Shown here: positions 28,944 to 61,679 of the stretch, piece after piece
Numbering within the stretch: the first letter of the stretch is position 1
Layout: each line of letters begins with the position of its first letter
Origin: Bacteroidota bacterium
GTDB taxonomy: Bacteria > Bacteroidota > Bacteroidia > Chitinophagales > Saprospiraceae
NCBI GenBank assembly: GCA_016124585.1
Contig: WGNL01000030.1
Coordinates: 62,001 to 126,000 of the forward strand
Reading direction: 5' to 3'
DNA: 64,000 nucleotides
Made by a program: the position numbers and the translations under genes
The notes under the pieces: generated by a model
The model's input: only the letters and a program-made list of their open reading frames with translations
The model's database searches: none
Told to the model about the DNA's origin: nothing

Positions 28944-28980
28944 GCAACGTCGGCGAGGTTCAAAACCTCGCCGACGTTGC
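28944..28980. terminator. 17-bp perfect palindrome between convergent genes
   Basis: GCAACGTCGGCGAGGTT (28944-28960) pairs perfectly with AACCTCGCCGACGTTGC (28964-28980) around a three-base loop. It ends one base before the DAHP synthase stop and 8 bases after the outer-membrane gene's stop. There is no U-run. It resembles an interspersed palindromic repeat that could also stop transcription. Confidence 0.6.
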
Positions 28981-31084: not shown

Positions 31085-31177
31085 AGGATTGAAAAGCCCG
31101 CAGGGATTTTTAAGCCAAATGAAAGGATTTCTAGCTTGGCTTAAAAATCCCTTCCTGCGTGCGGGCTTTTCAATCCT
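31085..31177. repeat. Long interrupted palindrome between divergent genes
   Basis: The left arm 31085-31118 pairs along 34 positions with the right arm 31136-31177, which carries one 8-base insertion (TCCTGCGT at about 31152-31159). The two perfectly paired blocks are 17 bp each, and the loop is 17 bases. Since both neighbours are transcribed away from it, it is unlikely to be a terminator and looks like an interspersed palindromic repeat. Confidence 0.65.
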
Positions 31178-31300: not shown

Positions 31301-34054
31301 ATGTCACTTTCAACCAGATACTCCCCCAAAGAAACTGAAGAACGCTGGTACGCCCATTGGGAGGCGAAAAACTATTTCCACTCCGAACCGGACGAGCGGG
31401 AGCCGTTCACCATCGTCATCCCGCCACCAAACGTGACAGGTGTACTGCACATGGGCCACATGCTCAACAACACCATCCAGGACGTGCTTATCCGCCGGGC
31501 GAGGATGCAGGGCAAGAACGCCTGCTGGGTGCCCGGCACCGACCACGCCAGCATTGCCACCGAGGCGAAAGTGGTTCAGTTGCTGCGCAAACAGGGCATC
31601 AAAAAGGGCGATATTCCAAGGGAAGAGTTTTTGAAGCACGCCTTCGATTGGAAAGAAAAATACGGCGGCATCATCCTCGAACAACTCAAAAAACTCGGCG
31701 CCAGTTGCGACTGGGAGCGCACCCGTTTCACAATGGAAGAAAGCCTTAGCCGGGCGGTCATCCATGTTTTTGTTGATTTGTATAAAAAAGGCAAGCTATA
31801 CCGTGGCCTGCGCATGACTAACTGGGATCCAGAGGCGAAGACGGTTTTGAGCAATGAGGAGGTCATTCACGAGGCCGAAAATTCGCAGCTTTTTCATATT
31901 CGCTACCCGTTGGTTGACAATCCCAACGAGGGAATTATCATTGCAACGCAGCGCCCAGAAACCATTATGGCGGACGTATCCATTGCCGTGAATCCAACCG
32001 ATGAGCGCTTCAAGGATTGGGTGGGCAAAACCGTGCTGATTCCACTGATTAACAAGCCGATACCCATCATTGCGGATTCGTACGTTGACATTGAATTCGG
32101 TACGGGGGCGTTGAAAATCACCCCAGCGCACGACCAGAATGACTTTGCGGTTGGTGAGCGCCATAATTTGCCAGTCGTGGACATTCTGACCGAGGATGGA
32201 AAGCTGAATGAAGCGGCGCAAATCCTCGTTGGCGAAGACCGTTTCGTGGCCCGCAAGAAAATCAAGAAACTGCTGGAAGAAGCTGGTTTCCTCGTCAAAC
32301 TGGAAGATTACCAGACCAAAATTGGTCGTAGTGAGCGCACCAATGCCGTGGTGGAGCCTCGCCTCACGAAGCAGTGGTTCCTGAAAATGGACGGATTCGC
32401 CGCAACAGCGTTGGAATCCGTGAAATCGGGCGACGTGAAATTTTACCCCGAAAACATGTGGAACATGTACTACCAGTGGCTGCAGCCCGACAATGTGCGG
32501 GACTGGTGCATCAGCCGCCAGTTGTGGTGGGGGCAGCAGATTCCGGCGTGGTATGTTCGGACGGCTGACGGTGGACGGTTGACGATTGACGGAGAAGATG
32601 CGGTTTTTGTAGCCGAAACGGCAGATGAAGCATTAGCTCAAGCCAAAGCAAAAACTGGTAATAACTCCCTGACCATCAAAGATTTGCAGCAAGACGAAGA
32701 TGTGGTGGACACTTGGTTCAGTTCGTGGCTCTGGCCGATCGCTGTGTTCGATGGGTTTGAGAAAAAAGACGACCTGAAATACTATTACCCAACCAATGTT
32801 TTGGTGACAGGTTGGGACATCATGTTTTTTTGGGTGGCTCGGATGATTATGTCAGGTTACGAGTGGTCGGAGGAGCTATTGGGCGGTGATTTGAAAGGGA
32901 AAATGCCGTTCCATGACGTGTATTTCACGGGGATGGTGCGGGATAACAAGCGTCGCAAGATGTCCAAGTCACTGGGCAACTCGCCGGATGCGCTGCAACT
33001 CATCGAAAACTACGGAGCCGATGGCGTCCGATTCGGGATGCTGCTCTCTGGCTCGGCGGGCAACGACATTATCTTCGATGCGCCGTTCGACCCAGTGACC
33101 AAGGAGGTTTTGAACGAAAGCAAACTCTGCGAGCAGGGCCGGAATTTCTGCAATAAAATGTGGAACGCCCTGCGCCTCATCAAGGGCTGGGACAGGAACG
33201 ATGCCGAACAACCTGAAGTAAACGCCCTAGCAGTGGCTTGGATAAAGGACAAATTCGACCAGACGCTGGCCGAGGTGGAAGCTAATTTCACCACCTATCG
33301 GCTCGGTGATGTGCTGATGGGGCTTTACCAGACCATCTGGGACGACTTCTGTTCTTGGTATCTCGAAATCATCAAACCGACATTCAACGCCGACGGGTCA
33401 AGCGAGCCGATTGACCACCAGACCTACGAGGCGACCATCAATATTTTTGAGAAAATGATGGCGGCGCTGCACCCGTTCATGCCGTTCGTGACCGAGGAAA
33501 TCTGGCATCAATTGCGTGAGCGCCGGGAGGGCAACGATTGCGTGGTGGCTGCCTATCCAACTGCTGGCCGGGTGGACAAGGCCATGATTCAGAAGGTGGA
33601 TAAAGCCAAGGATTTGATTACGAAAATCCGGGAAAGCCGGAGCAGCAAGGGCATTTCACCGAAGGAAAGCCTGCGACTTTTTGTGCAAAATACATCTAGT
33701 GCCAAAGCAATGTTTGAGTTGAATGGACTTGCTGGTTTAGTTAAAAAAATGGCCAACCTCAGCGAATTGAGCTTCACGGACGAGGAGCCAGCGGGAACAG
33801 TTTCGCTGCTTTCAGGTACGGAGAAGTATTTCCTCGAAATGAACATAACGATTGACGTGGCGGCCGAACGGGAGCGCATGACGAAGGAACTCGATTACTA
33901 TCGAGGTTTCGTGGCAAGTGTTGAAAAGAAGCTTTCCAATGAAAAATTCGTGAACGGGGCACCTGCCCAAGTCATTGAAGGCGAACGCAAGAAGCTGGCG
34001 GATGGGCAGGAGAAGATGCGGATTTTGGAGGAGGGGCTGGTGAAATTGGGGTGA
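31301..34054 (+). CDS. valS: Valyl-tRNA synthetase
   Basis: 917 residues, class I aminoacyl-tRNA synthetase that charges tRNA(Val). The HIGH signature is HMGH (50-53, in PPPNVTGVLHMGH), the KMSKS loop is at 553-557 (RRKMSKSLGN), the CP1 editing domain lies between (TQRPETI, GTGALKITPAHD), and the anticodon-binding domain and C-terminal coiled coil (about 845-917, VAAERERMTKELDYYRGF) close the protein. Length is in the family range. Its ATG lies downstream of a long interrupted palindrome; the stop is 13 bases before the left RAYT palindrome. Confidence 0.98.
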   Translation: MSLSTRYSPKETEERWYAHWEAKNYFHSEPDEREPFTIVIPPPNVTGVLHMGHMLNNTIQDVLIRRARMQGKNACWVPGTDHASIATEAKVVQLLRKQGIKKGDIPREEFLKHAFDWKEKYGGIILEQLKKLGASCDWERTRFTMEESLSRAVIHVFVDLYKKGKLYRGLRMTNWDPEAKTVLSNEEVIHEAENSQLFHIRYPLVDNPNEGIIIATQRPETIMADVSIAVNPTDERFKDWVGKTVLIPLINKPIPIIADSYVDIEFGTGALKITPAHDQNDFAVGERHNLPVVDILTEDGKLNEAAQILVGEDRFVARKKIKKLLEEAGFLVKLEDYQTKIGRSERTNAVVEPRLTKQWFLKMDGFAATALESVKSGDVKFYPENMWNMYYQWLQPDNVRDWCISRQLWWGQQIPAWYVRTADGGRLTIDGEDAVFVAETADEALAQAKAKTGNNSLTIKDLQQDEDVVDTWFSSWLWPIAVFDGFEKKDDLKYYYPTNVLVTGWDIMFFWVARMIMSGYEWSEELLGGDLKGKMPFHDVYFTGMVRDNKRRKMSKSLGNSPDALQLIENYGADGVRFGMLLSGSAGNDIIFDAPFDPVTKEVLNESKLCEQGRNFCNKMWNALRLIKGWDRNDAEQPEVNALAVAWIKDKFDQTLAEVEANFTTYRLGDVLMGLYQTIWDDFCSWYLEIIKPTFNADGSSEPIDHQTYEATINIFEKMMAALHPFMPFVTEEIWHQLRERREGNDCVVAAYPTAGRVDKAMIQKVDKAKDLITKIRESRSSKGISPKESLRLFVQNTSSAKAMFELNGLAGLVKKMANLSELSFTDEEPAGTVSLLSGTEKYFLEMNITIDVAAERERMTKELDYYRGFVASVEKKLSNEKFVNGAPAQVIEGERKKLADGQEKMRILEEGLVKLG

Positions 34055-34067: not shown

Positions 34068-34145
34068 TTTACCGCCCGTGCTGATAACCAACCCTGTTAG
34101 GGTTTCGAAACCCTAACAGGGTTGGTTATCAGCACGGGCGGTAAA
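34068..34145. repeat. Perfect 78-bp palindrome, left of the RAYT gene
   Basis: Two 39-bp arms (34068-34106 and 34107-34145) are fully complementary with no loop. The centre is the core ACCCTGTTAGGGTTTC / GAAACCCTAACAGGGT; the outer 20 or so bases of each arm (TTTACCGCCCGTGCTGATAA) are absent from the partner palindrome at 34900. It begins 13 bases after valS and ends 12 bases before the transposase ATG. Confidence 0.95.
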
Positions 34146-34157
34146 ACTGAATATACT

Positions 34158-34892
34158 ATGAGCGAACCTGCAATTCCACTCCGTGCTGGCAGTTTATATC
34201 ATATTTTCAATCAAGGAAATAACCGGGAAAATATATTCGTAGAGCCTCGAAACTATCTATATTTCTTTGATAAACTCAGGGAATACGTCTTGCCTATCGG
34301 CCATATATTTGCCTATTGTTTATTGCCTAATCATTTTCATTTATTAATTAAGATTCATAATTACGACAGCTTGCACGAATCCTTGCCCAAGCGATTCCCA
34401 AAACCTAAATTTTACTTCACTTTCCGAGAAGGAACAAGGCCAGAAGAACGTGAATTTGATGACATGGTGAGTAATCTGATTTCCCGACAATTTTCAGATA
34501 TGTTCAATGGTTATACCCAAGCTATCAATAAGGCTACCAATAGGAGAGGTAAGCTCTTCTCACTTCCATTTGAAAGAGTAGAAATTTCTGGAGAGGAATT
34601 GATTACCTATCTCATTTGCTATATACACAGAAACCCAGTGCATCATCATTTTTGCGAGGATTATGGAATATGGCCATATAGCTCTTATCTAGAAATATTG
34701 GAATTATTGAAAAATGGGGCAATCATTGGGACTCCAACTGCGAAAGCAACCCAAGTGGAAAAAGATATAGTTGTTCCCAACAGCATTCTAAACCTCGAAT
34801 TCTTGGGAACATGGTTTCAGAAATCAGCCTATTATTCAATGTTGCATGATGAAGCAAAAGGAAATTGGGAGAATAAGTTTTTATTGGAATGA
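34158..34892 (+). CDS. REP-associated tyrosine transposase (Y1_Tnp/RAYT family)
   Basis: 244 residues. HUH-type single-strand nuclease: the metal-binding pair is His59-Phe-His61 in LPNHFHLLIKI, and the catalytic tyrosine is Tyr119 in MFNGYTQAINK, followed by NRRGKLF and the family motif YIHRNPV (155-161) and GIWPYSSY. About 30 residues lie between the HUH and Tyr motifs that carry an insert (KRFPKPKFYFTFREG) longer than in Escherichia RAYTs. I chose the ATG at 34158 because an in-frame ATG at 34122 would start inside the palindrome. All catalytic residues look intact, so it may be active. Confidence 0.9.
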   Translation: MSEPAIPLRAGSLYHIFNQGNNRENIFVEPRNYLYFFDKLREYVLPIGHIFAYCLLPNHFHLLIKIHNYDSLHESLPKRFPKPKFYFTFREGTRPEEREFDDMVSNLISRQFSDMFNGYTQAINKATNRRGKLFSLPFERVEISGEELITYLICYIHRNPVHHHFCEDYGIWPYSSYLEILELLKNGAIIGTPTAKATQVEKDIVVPNSILNLEFLGTWFQKSAYYSMLHDEAKGNWENKFLLE

Positions 34893-34899
34893 AGAAGAT

Positions 34900-34974
34900 A
34901 GTGAGATTGATAAGTCAACCGACCCTGTTAGGGTTTCAAACCCTAACAGGGTCGGTTGACTTATCAATCTCACT
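34900..34974. repeat. Perfect 75-bp palindrome, right of the RAYT gene
   Basis: Arms 34900-34936 and 34938-34974 (37 bp each) are fully complementary around a single C. The core CCCTGTTAGGGTTT / AAACCCTAACAGGG is shared with the left palindrome, while the outer 20 bases of each arm (AGTGAGATTGATAAGTCAAC) are unrelated to it. It lies seven bases after the transposase stop and contains the stop codon of the aldo/keto reductase on the other strand. Confidence 0.95.
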
Positions 34975-35944
34975 GGCTCCAACTCGTAGGCGTCCTTTCC
35001 CAGCGATGCTTTTTCAACTCATACAGCGTATCATATTTCAACCCAATCCCGTCACTGCAAGCAATATTAGCTTCAACATGTCTTAACTTCCGCATACCTG
35101 GTATGGTCGTCGCCACATCATGATTGCTGAGAATAAAACGAAGCGCCATTTCCGCCATCGTCATTTTCGGTGGAATGGTGGGGCGGAGCGCATCGGCATG
35201 TTCCACGCTGGAGTCTAGGTTTTCTTTGACGAAGTAAGTTGCCCGCCAATCATCGGGTGGAAAAACCATGTCCTTGGTCATGTTCCCGGTCAGCGTACCT
35301 TCATCGAAAGGCACTCGGGCGATGACCCCGATGTTCAATTCCCGGCAAAGCGGGAAGAGATTGTCCTCCGGGTTCTGGTCGAAGATATTGTAGATGACCT
35401 GTACCGTGTCAATCAAATTGGTGCGCAGTGTTTTGAGGCTATTGTCAGGCTCCCAGCGGTTGATGCTGATGCCCCAGTGGGCGACCTTGCCTTGTTCCGT
35501 CAGCTTCGCAATGGTTTCCTTCCATTCGTCCCGGTCGTGCCAAGCATCCTCCCAGACGTGGAATTGCATCAAATCCAACTGCTCCACATCCAAGTTTTGA
35601 AGGCTGCGCTCCACATATTCTGTGATGTATTTCGAAGGGAAAACCTCATCCAAAGTAAACGCTGGTTTGGAAGGCCATTTTCGATTTTTTGGAGGAATCT
35701 TGGAGGCAAGGTAGAGCCGCTTGTCAGAGTGCTTCCGAACGAGGTCACCAAGAATGATTTCACTCAACCCATCGCCATACGCCCATGCCGTATCGAAGAA
35801 ATTGAGGCCGAGTTCCACGGCACAGTCCAATGATTGCTGTACTTCTTTTGGGTCAGTGTCTTTCCAGCCAGCCAGGCCCCACATGCCGTAGCCAATTTCT
35901 GAGATTTTGTAGCCAGTGCGGCCAAGTGTGCGGTATTTCATCAT
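34970..35944 (-). CDS. Aldo/keto reductase
   Basis: 324 residues, NADPH-dependent oxidoreductase on a TIM barrel. The catalytic tetrad is present: Asp51, Tyr56 (FDTAWAYGDG), Lys82 (LASKIPP) and His129 (LMQFHVWED). The N-terminus MMKYRTLGRTGYKISEIGYG is typical of the YhdN/PLD family. The start at 35944 is chosen over an in-frame upstream ATG at 36151, which would run through the neighbouring gene. Its stop codon lies inside the right palindrome of the transposase unit, so the palindrome either formed there or replaced the original 3' end. Physiological substrate unknown. Confidence 0.92.
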   Translation of the reverse strand: MMKYRTLGRTGYKISEIGYGMWGLAGWKDTDPKEVQQSLDCAVELGLNFFDTAWAYGDGLSEIILGDLVRKHSDKRLYLASKIPPKNRKWPSKPAFTLDEVFPSKYITEYVERSLQNLDVEQLDLMQFHVWEDAWHDRDEWKETIAKLTEQGKVAHWGISINRWEPDNSLKTLRTNLIDTVQVIYNIFDQNPEDNLFPLCRELNIGVIARVPFDEGTLTGNMTKDMVFPPDDWRATYFVKENLDSSVEHADALRPTIPPKMTMAEMALRFILSNHDVATTIPGMRKLRHVEANIACSDGIGLKYDTLYELKKHRWERTPTSWSQ

Positions 35945-36009
35945 TTTAATGGATTGAATGGGTGAAGGATTGAATGGGTGAAGAAAAGAACTATTCAATC
36001 CTTCAATTC

Positions 36010-36603
36010 TTACAAAAGCAACGGTTCCAGCACTGCTTCCAATTCTTCTTTGGACATGTTGCGGGTTTGGAACTGCTTGATGCCGTCTTTGGATTTGATA
36101 AAAATTGCAGGTAGTGCGCCATTCCATCCACCTGAGATTTCGTTCATCCATTTACCATCACTATCGTTCACTTGCAAAACATCGGAAGCAACGCCCACTT
36201 TGCGAATTACAAGATTGACTTCATTCGTCTTGGTTTCTTCGTTCATGTTGACGAACATCAGATGAAGTTTTTTTTCACCGTGCTTGGTTTGAATATCCTG
36301 TAACACCTGTTGCAAGTAGATGCACTTGAGGCATTCAAATTTCCAAAAATTGACCACCAACAATGCAGAAGTATCTGCTTTGATGGTCGCCAGCAATGCA
36401 GCAGGTTGAATCAACATGGCTTGCTTACCTTGCGCAGCAGCTAGTTCGGCATTCTCGGCTTCAGTAGTATTACCCGTTTGTTCCATGTTGTGTGGCAAAG
36501 CGGCTTCGTTGGCTTCGGACTGGGACGGTTCATTGCCGCAGGCAAAAAACAGACAAACAGCAAGACAAATTAGGCTCAGGTTTCTGATGATTTGAAATCG
36601 CAT
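36010..36603 (-). CDS. Thioredoxin-like lipoprotein
   Basis: 197 residues. Signal peptide with lipobox FFAC (Cys22), then an acidic linker to about residue 60 and a thioredoxin fold with the redox pair Cys91-Leu-Lys-Cys94 (FWKFECLKCIYL). CLKC differs from the CGPC of thioredoxin and from the usual ResA/TlpA motif CxPC, so redox potential may differ. Likely a periplasmic, membrane-attached thiol reductase, perhaps serving cytochrome maturation (inference). The ATG at 36603 is chosen for its signal peptide. It is divergent from the DUF3810 gene and 65 bases downstream of no other gene on this strand. Confidence 0.8.
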   Translation of the reverse strand: MRFQIIRNLSLICLAVCLFFACGNEPSQSEANEAALPHNMEQTGNTTEAENAELAAAQGKQAMLIQPAALLATIKADTSALLVVNFWKFECLKCIYLQQVLQDIQTKHGEKKLHLMFVNMNEETKTNEVNLVIRKVGVASDVLQVNDSDGKWMNEISGGWNGALPAIFIKSKDGIKQFQTRNMSKEELEAVLEPLLL

Positions 36604-61511: not shown

Positions 61512-61616
61512 ATTCTTCGCTGATTTGAAGTTGGGAGAGGTGTACAGAATCCATGTGGATGCAGTTGGATATGGGGTTTTAAATGACACAATTGGAAGTT
61601 AAAAAATAGAAAAATT

Positions 61617-61652
61617 CAAAAGCCACTTGCAAACATTTGCAAGTGGCTTTTG
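61617..61652 (+). terminator. Intrinsic terminator
   Basis: Perfect 17-bp stem CAAAAGCCACTTGCAAA (61617-61633) / TTTGCAAGTGGCTTTTG (61636-61652), two-base loop, T-rich on both faces, between the pseudouridine synthase and the convergent lipoprotein gene. Confidence 0.85.
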
Positions 61653-61679
61653 ACAATAACTAAAATAATGTAGCCTAGA

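Follow-up and report, generated by a model that had tools for sequence, protein, structure and literature searches.

How can DNA that belongs to one copy of a repeat only be perfectly complementary to itself? The locus analyzed here raises this question because two long palindromes with a common core and different outer arms lie on either side of a RAYT-like transposase gene. A preliminary description of the locus had proposed that flanking DNA was recently copied into inverted form by a fold-back step, perhaps catalysed by this enzyme. We analyzed the window, that is the whole stretch of 64,000 nucleotides (C36:62001-126000; source genome of 6.63 Mb in 45 contigs), together with related genomes. 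Both palindromes and the intact gene between them were found where they had been described, correct to the base (Table 1).

Table 1. Positions in the window of the palindromes, the neighboring genes and other hairpins
Feature	Position	Strand	Remarks
valS-like gene	31301..34054	+	Left palindrome begins 13 nt past the stop codon
Left perfect palindrome	34068..34145	.	39-nt arms (34068-34106 / 34107-34145), spacer 0, 100% paired; outer 22 nt genome-unique
Core of left palindrome, AACCCTGTTAGGGTTTCGAAACCCTAACAGGGTT	34090..34123	.	34 bp
RAYT / TnpA_REP-like gene	34158..34892	+	244 aa from ATG; NCBIfam NF047646, HUH and Tyr motifs; an in-frame TTG at 34122, upstream of the ATG, falls within the left palindrome
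Right perfect palindrome	34900..34974	.	37-nt arms (34900-34936 / 34938-34974), spacer 1 nt, 100% paired
Aldo/keto-reductase-like gene (akr)	34970..36151	-	Name is a reading of the sequence; convergent, stop codon at the right palindrome edge, contained in its last 5 nt
Hairpin of another REP family, ACGTCGGCGAGGTT	28944-28980		Perfect, arms 17, spacer 3; fills the gap between convergent ORFs
Nested inverted repeats	31085-31177		Just ahead of valS; 18-nt arms, 57-nt spacer containing 17-nt arms
Hairpin between two ORFs	61616-61653		Perfect, arms 18, spacer 2; looks like an ordinary gene-end hairpin

The core CCCTGTTAGGGTTT was present on both strands of both palindromes. Allowing up to two mismatches, it occurred four times in the window, while shuffled sequences had a mean of 0.63 and none out of 100 reached four. 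The likeness of the arms extended a few bases beyond the core first described (AACC[A/G]A ahead of CCCTG), and the arms outside it were unrelated, as had been claimed. A perfect arm of 37 nt would arise by chance in 64 kb with a probability of the order of 64000 x 4^-37. In 864 kb of the window's genome, perfect hairpins with arms of at least 26 nt and a spacer of up to 12 numbered three, the two window palindromes and another family member; the next-longest perfect arm was 25 nt, and no hairpin outside the CTGTTAG family exceeded this length. A single element carrying both palindromes was considered and rejected, since their inner flanks differ and both valS and akr are followed by family hairpins in one relative (G012).

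The protein encoded between the palindromes retains NHFH and YIHRNP, both of which align with seven relatives, and so has the HUH motif and the single Tyr motif of RAYT / TnpA_REP. The NCBIfam model for REP-associated transposases (REP_Tyr_transpos, NF047646) matched with an E-value of 1.2e-13 and 51.2 bits, below the cut-off of 80, and Pfam Y1_Tnp matched with an E-value of only 0.13; therefore we label the protein RAYT-like. A PDB sequence search gave two matches, both at chance level, and the single-sequence structure fold had a mean pLDDT of 33. PADLOC reported GajB with an E-value of 0.049, which was judged to be chance. In a tree of RAYTs, from which 9 of 33 loci were left out as having no ORF with both motifs under the pattern used, the RAYTs of the window and of G007 formed one clade (100/99), and each was flanked by CTGTTAG hairpins; for the other clades we found different hairpins or none. 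From this distribution, the CTGTTAG core is taken as the putative cognate REP of the window/G007 clade. The CTGTTAG copies of G007 were all short-armed, and a short-armed REP also lies inside the G007 RAYT reading frame (L049, G007:C43:24297-24321). Hairpins similar to ACGTCGGCGAGGTT flank RAYTs in G012 and G005.

We searched 14 genomes of the genus for the pattern CTGTTAG-N(6-24)-CTAACAG. Matches were found at 66 places in 10 of the 14 genomes, and all 66 were inspected; a reversed control pattern gave 0-2 matches per genome. The conserved part of the family is approximately ACAACCCTGTTAG-n-G-y-TT...AA-r-C-n-CTAACAGGGTTGT. Twelve hairpins were identified by pattern in the window's genome, and L310, which had escaped the pattern by a base change in its core, brings the number to 13. 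Ten of the 12 were long, with a copy-specific, perfectly paired outer arm of 11-26 nt, and the other two (L020 and L169) were not; the 34 bp of AACCCTGTTAGGGTTTCGAAACCCTAACAGGGTT recur identically in L020 and L027. Short copies, such as those of G007, G009 and G010, end about 4 nt outside CTGTTAG, while long copies reach 9-37 nt outward. We counted 35 long copies in six genomes (G012, 12; G000, 10; G008, 5; G011, 5; G006, 2; G005, 1), a set selected by arm length, since long was defined as an outer arm of at least 9 nt. L168 of G010, the core of which is unlike the family, and an overlapping second reading of L174 were left out of the 35, and the nested and imperfect L181 was counted. L181 (G012:C279:19500-21350) has at ~880-1000 several nested or stacked core copies with arms partly inverted. 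When one genome per species was scanned for CTGTTAGNGYTTCGAARCNCTAACAG across 84,980 species, a set that possibly does not hold the window's own record, 11 stretches were found in two genomes, Saprospiraceae UBA6168 and NC_groundwater_1594. An exact match to the window core occurred in one of 148 relatives, the source genome itself.

On the best reading, the palindromes are members of a family of REP-like hairpins associated with the window RAYT clade. Like REPs, they flank a RAYT, have copies elsewhere in the genome and occupy an extragenic place, both window copies being intergenic. On the other hand, the stem is shared among copies only to ~7-10 nt outside CTGTTAG, and the 13 copies of the window's genome fall short of the usual REP copy number, given as >100 in the section of PMC2817692 consulted. 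For the most part, each species has an inner stem of its own, also at shared sites (GGG in the window's genome, GAG in G012 and G011), as if the dispersed cores of G000, G011 and G012 evolved in concert. A known structured RNA was rejected: Rfam at E<=1 returned 17 matches with none at the gathering score, and they were mostly microRNA precursors, which suggests that any hairpin would match.

The outer arms were found to be both private and paired. Among 752 outer pairs across the 35 long copies, 745 were perfect and 7 mismatched, and three of the 7 were of the G-T/A-C type, with no excess over other types. Pairing private to each copy and of this extent agrees with the earlier statement that a common substrate alone cannot account for it. 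The first four inner-stem pairs were mismatched in 8 of 140 cases compared to the 7 of 752 (p 7e-4), although the comparison favors the outer arms, the rate of which is biased low because arm length was counted only up to where pairing holds; selection of the copies by arm length acts in the same direction. Two copies with damaged cores had perfect outer arms nonetheless, L310 (30 nt) and, as judged by eye, L258 of G001 (26 nt). A consensus over 34 arms (L181 left out) was weak and faded 7-10 nt outside CTG, beyond which the columns were mostly near background; directly outside the core the arms were A-rich, i.e. T-rich after the stem. The preliminary description had called for a genome-wide core search with arms and flanks measured at each copy, and by this measurement the copies do not all share the same flanks. 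Neither the left nor the right outer arm of the window (22 nt each) had a second genomic copy at <=3 mismatches, and in the three genome-wide arm searches, these two and one arm of G011, no donor sequence was seen at that threshold. Other REPs of the same genomes were not lengthened: the 7 CCTGNCAGG hairpins of the window's genome end 3-6 nt outside their core, and the 11 CTGTTAGC(A/G)CT copies in G007, G009, G010 and G012 end 0-6 nt outside theirs. This counts against fold-back copying, which as a general host process should lengthen them too. A CCTGTCAGG-type hairpin is present in the window's genome.

An ORF stop lay within 80 nt of the core in 31 of 36 long hairpins (L168 included), and 28 of these were at 8-39 nt. 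Many arm edges were 0-14 nt from a stop codon; the idea that a stop codon sets the arm end was rejected when arm lengths were permuted (31 loci, p 0.063). Nine of the 13 family sites of the window's genome were looked up across the genus by neighboring protein. At five of them (nuoC, gcvT, valS, akr and a gene that we named 'amid') the same gene end carried a family hairpin in at least one relative, and in this lookup no relative's family hairpin was seen at trpD, murA, an mqn-like gene or panB. A sixth shared site, L170 with L152 of G005, came from locus comparison. The relatives' hairpins at the five shared sites had different arms and a different inner stem, and the nuoC hairpin of G005 had an imperfect core. 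Some perfect hairpin of at least 10 nt was present at 14 of 62 gene ends in relatives, four of them of the CTGTTAG family (shuffles, 4 of 1240). At the etfA site, six relatives had ordinary terminator-like hairpins and G008 and G001 had long ones (by eye). The family hairpins probably serve as 3'-end or bidirectional terminators at gene ends. Set against a G+C stem followed by a T run, the family has the gene-end place, an outer stem that is A/T-rich on average and, in the window copies, no T run; a terminator scan called neither window palindrome.

Inverted repeats of other kinds were also noted in the genus. A long family with a TTTACGATTTACGA unit lies behind a traB-like gene in several genomes (L293, L288, L292, L307), seemingly as its left half only in L292 of G012 (by eye). 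Gene-end inverted repeats of a ACACAGAGGCACGGAGG family were seen at L094 and L305 (G012), with 30-nt arms at nuoC, and imperfect CACAGATTGAACTGATT ones at L096 and L107 (G001 and G013). A perfect palindrome with 35-nt arms at L043 (G010:C592, 1999-2068) is without the CTGTTAG core.

Comparison with relatives bears on whether the RAYT or the palindromes came first. G012 has family hairpins behind both genes that flank the window RAYT, valS (at a contig end) and akr. Its akr-side hairpin is followed by a gene that in G001 sits between valS and akr, and in the window the RAYT occupies the place of this gene. Such a layout suggests that the hairpins were there first, and both window palindromes probably predate the RAYT. 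The word recent in the preliminary description is thus not supported. The suggestion of catalysis by this enzyme is not supported either, since G008 (98% complete) carries five long copies with no RAYT match at E<=0.001. The same copies bear on the possibility, raised at the outset, that the core might occur in genomes without the transposase only as an ordinary terminator; half of this was found, as G008 has long-armed copies and no detected RAYT. The confinement of lengthening to one REP family leaves room for RAYT catalysis. We infer that the RAYT dispersed the core without producing the arms.

Several sites are informative on how arms arise. At one gene end, G008 has a quasi-palindrome (L163) with arms GGCAAGCTGC-CCTC-AGCT and GGCAAGCTGC-GCTTTTGGGGTCAGAC-AGCT. 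The orthologous L149 of G011 has the long form in both arms, is perfect, and carries two base changes relative to G008 on both sides. Here one arm differs en bloc and equals the exact inverse of the other, as expected of a template switch. At the 'amid' gene end, the left flank is common to G006 and G011, and its inverted copy is present on the right in G011 only. Both orthologous pairs, in which the direction of change is read without an outgroup, fit quasi-palindrome template switching as outlined in the parts of PMC7202029 and PMC8794818 consulted. In L174 of G012, which is at a contig end, both arms carry the same duplication of 9 nt. The comparison with empty sites in relatives that had been suggested was made at three sites where a relative lacks the hairpin (cupin, G011/G005; lpxK, G012/G005; L164, G008/G000), and by eye 0, 6 and 6 nt of the arm were found in the relative's flank. 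The arm there came either from a flank that has since diverged or together with the hairpin, and these sites give little or no support to a local origin of the whole arm.

Fold-back copying emerged as the best explanation, as first proposed, and the occurrence of one site as a quasi-palindrome in one species and a perfect palindrome in another adds to it. We put at roughly 0.55 the probability that fold-back template switching both writes and repairs the outer arms and that the family represents the gene-end REP hairpins of the RAYT clade. A growing strand that has already copied the core would fold upon this self-complementary sequence, make an inverted copy of 10-30 nt of its own flank and afterwards return to the template, so that the core would prime and the outer arm would be the copy. 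The lower fidelity of inner-stem pairs relative to outer ones looks as if this were the case, and L310 and L258 of G001 were counted for the same reading. The family and its gene-end place, the private arms with hardly a mismatch, the shared sites at which species differ in their arms, the quasi/perfect pair and one lengthened arm are direct observations; the copying step and its direction are what we infer.

Selection on RNA alone is a less probable account, in which the hairpins act as intrinsic terminators in both directions or protect mRNA 3' ends, and ordinary point mutations under selection keep them paired. It would suit the position near ORF stops, the T-richness after the stem and the terminator-like hairpins that six relatives have at etfA where G008 and G001 have long ones. 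However, G-T type mismatches made up only 3 of the 752 pairs, the stems are much longer than any other perfect hairpin in the 864 kb, arms at orthologous sites differ by whole blocks, and the window copies, with no T run, escaped the terminator scan. Somewhat less likely still is a process driven by the RAYT, in which the HUH enzyme nicks the core and the free 3' end folds back and is extended, at insertion or on later visits. Lengthening only in the hairpin family that flanks the window RAYT clade speaks for it, and the species-specific inner stems at shared sites suggest renewed activity within species; but the RAYT-less G008 has its five long copies, the copies on either side of the sister RAYT in G007 are all short-armed, and both window sites are common to G012.

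That core and arms were inserted as one mobile unit, the arm having been acquired at an earlier site, is improbable. Sites where a relative shows no trace of the arm would be in agreement with this, but no second copy existed in the genome for the three arms tested. Reads folded back at hairpins, i.e. an assembly or sequencing artefact, are a very unlikely source. Four of the 35 copies, all in G012 (L143, L148, L173, L174), do reach a contig end; the other 31 lie within contigs, between unique sequences, and come from six assemblies, several of them at the same gene ends, and no such lengthening is seen in other hairpins of these assemblies. A bolder form of fold-back copying, to which we give about as little credence as to RNA selection, is that the core programs its own palindrome by priming self-templated synthesis that inverts 10-30 nt of any flank, perhaps with the HUH enzyme or a host nuclease that recognizes the core. 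If true, each copy would obtain a perfect stem of its own, and any flank could be turned into a strong gene-end hairpin; the ability would be limited to the CTGTTAG family, as sister REPs in the same genomes do otherwise.

The locus resembles REPtrons, in which TnpA_REP (RAYT) genes are flanked by cognate REP hairpins according to the consulted text of PMC8266576 and PMC6006769, in that an HUH/Tyr gene lies between hairpins with further copies scattered over the genome. The latter source, as far as consulted, describes a subclass 2.6 that is Bacteroidetes, with 'atypical secondary structures', and REPtrons as presented there include a REP type with perfect palindromes. In the same portion, REPs are described as fixed-sequence stems, with a basal stem of 7-20 nt in the prediction rules (PMC6006769); in the CTGTTAG family, unlike these, only the tip is fixed and a stem of 10-30 nt is private to each copy. 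In E. coli, quasi-palindrome template-switch mutation uses the nascent strand as template and turns imperfect into perfect inverted repeats (PMC7202029, in part). There it is known from single hotspots and reporters, whereas the CTGTTAG family offers dozens of sites in one hairpin family. Template switching also creates and maintains RNA hairpins, giving perfect stems with correlated changes (PMC8794818); the consulted text of that study deals with RNA genes, does not mention terminators and draws no link to REPs. Nematomorpha mitochondria likewise have many long perfect inverted repeats per genome, of up to 284 bp, but these lie inside coding genes, and no shared core is mentioned in the part of PMC6649704 consulted. 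Among the matches listed in the open-access literature, we recognized no REPs with copy-specific stems and no palindromes in Saprospiraceae, and found no earlier description of REP-like hairpins in which the tip is conserved and the stem rewritten.

The observation holds, and it reaches further than the preliminary description saw. REPs have so far been treated as hairpins of fixed sequence, and conservation of the tip only, with site-by-site rewriting of the stem, would link the biology of REPs and RAYTs to template-switch mutation. In such a family, fold-back synthesis would have left a natural record, with dozens of sites in several species and measurable arm lengths, and the family would show a genome building strong gene-end hairpins from arbitrary sequence.
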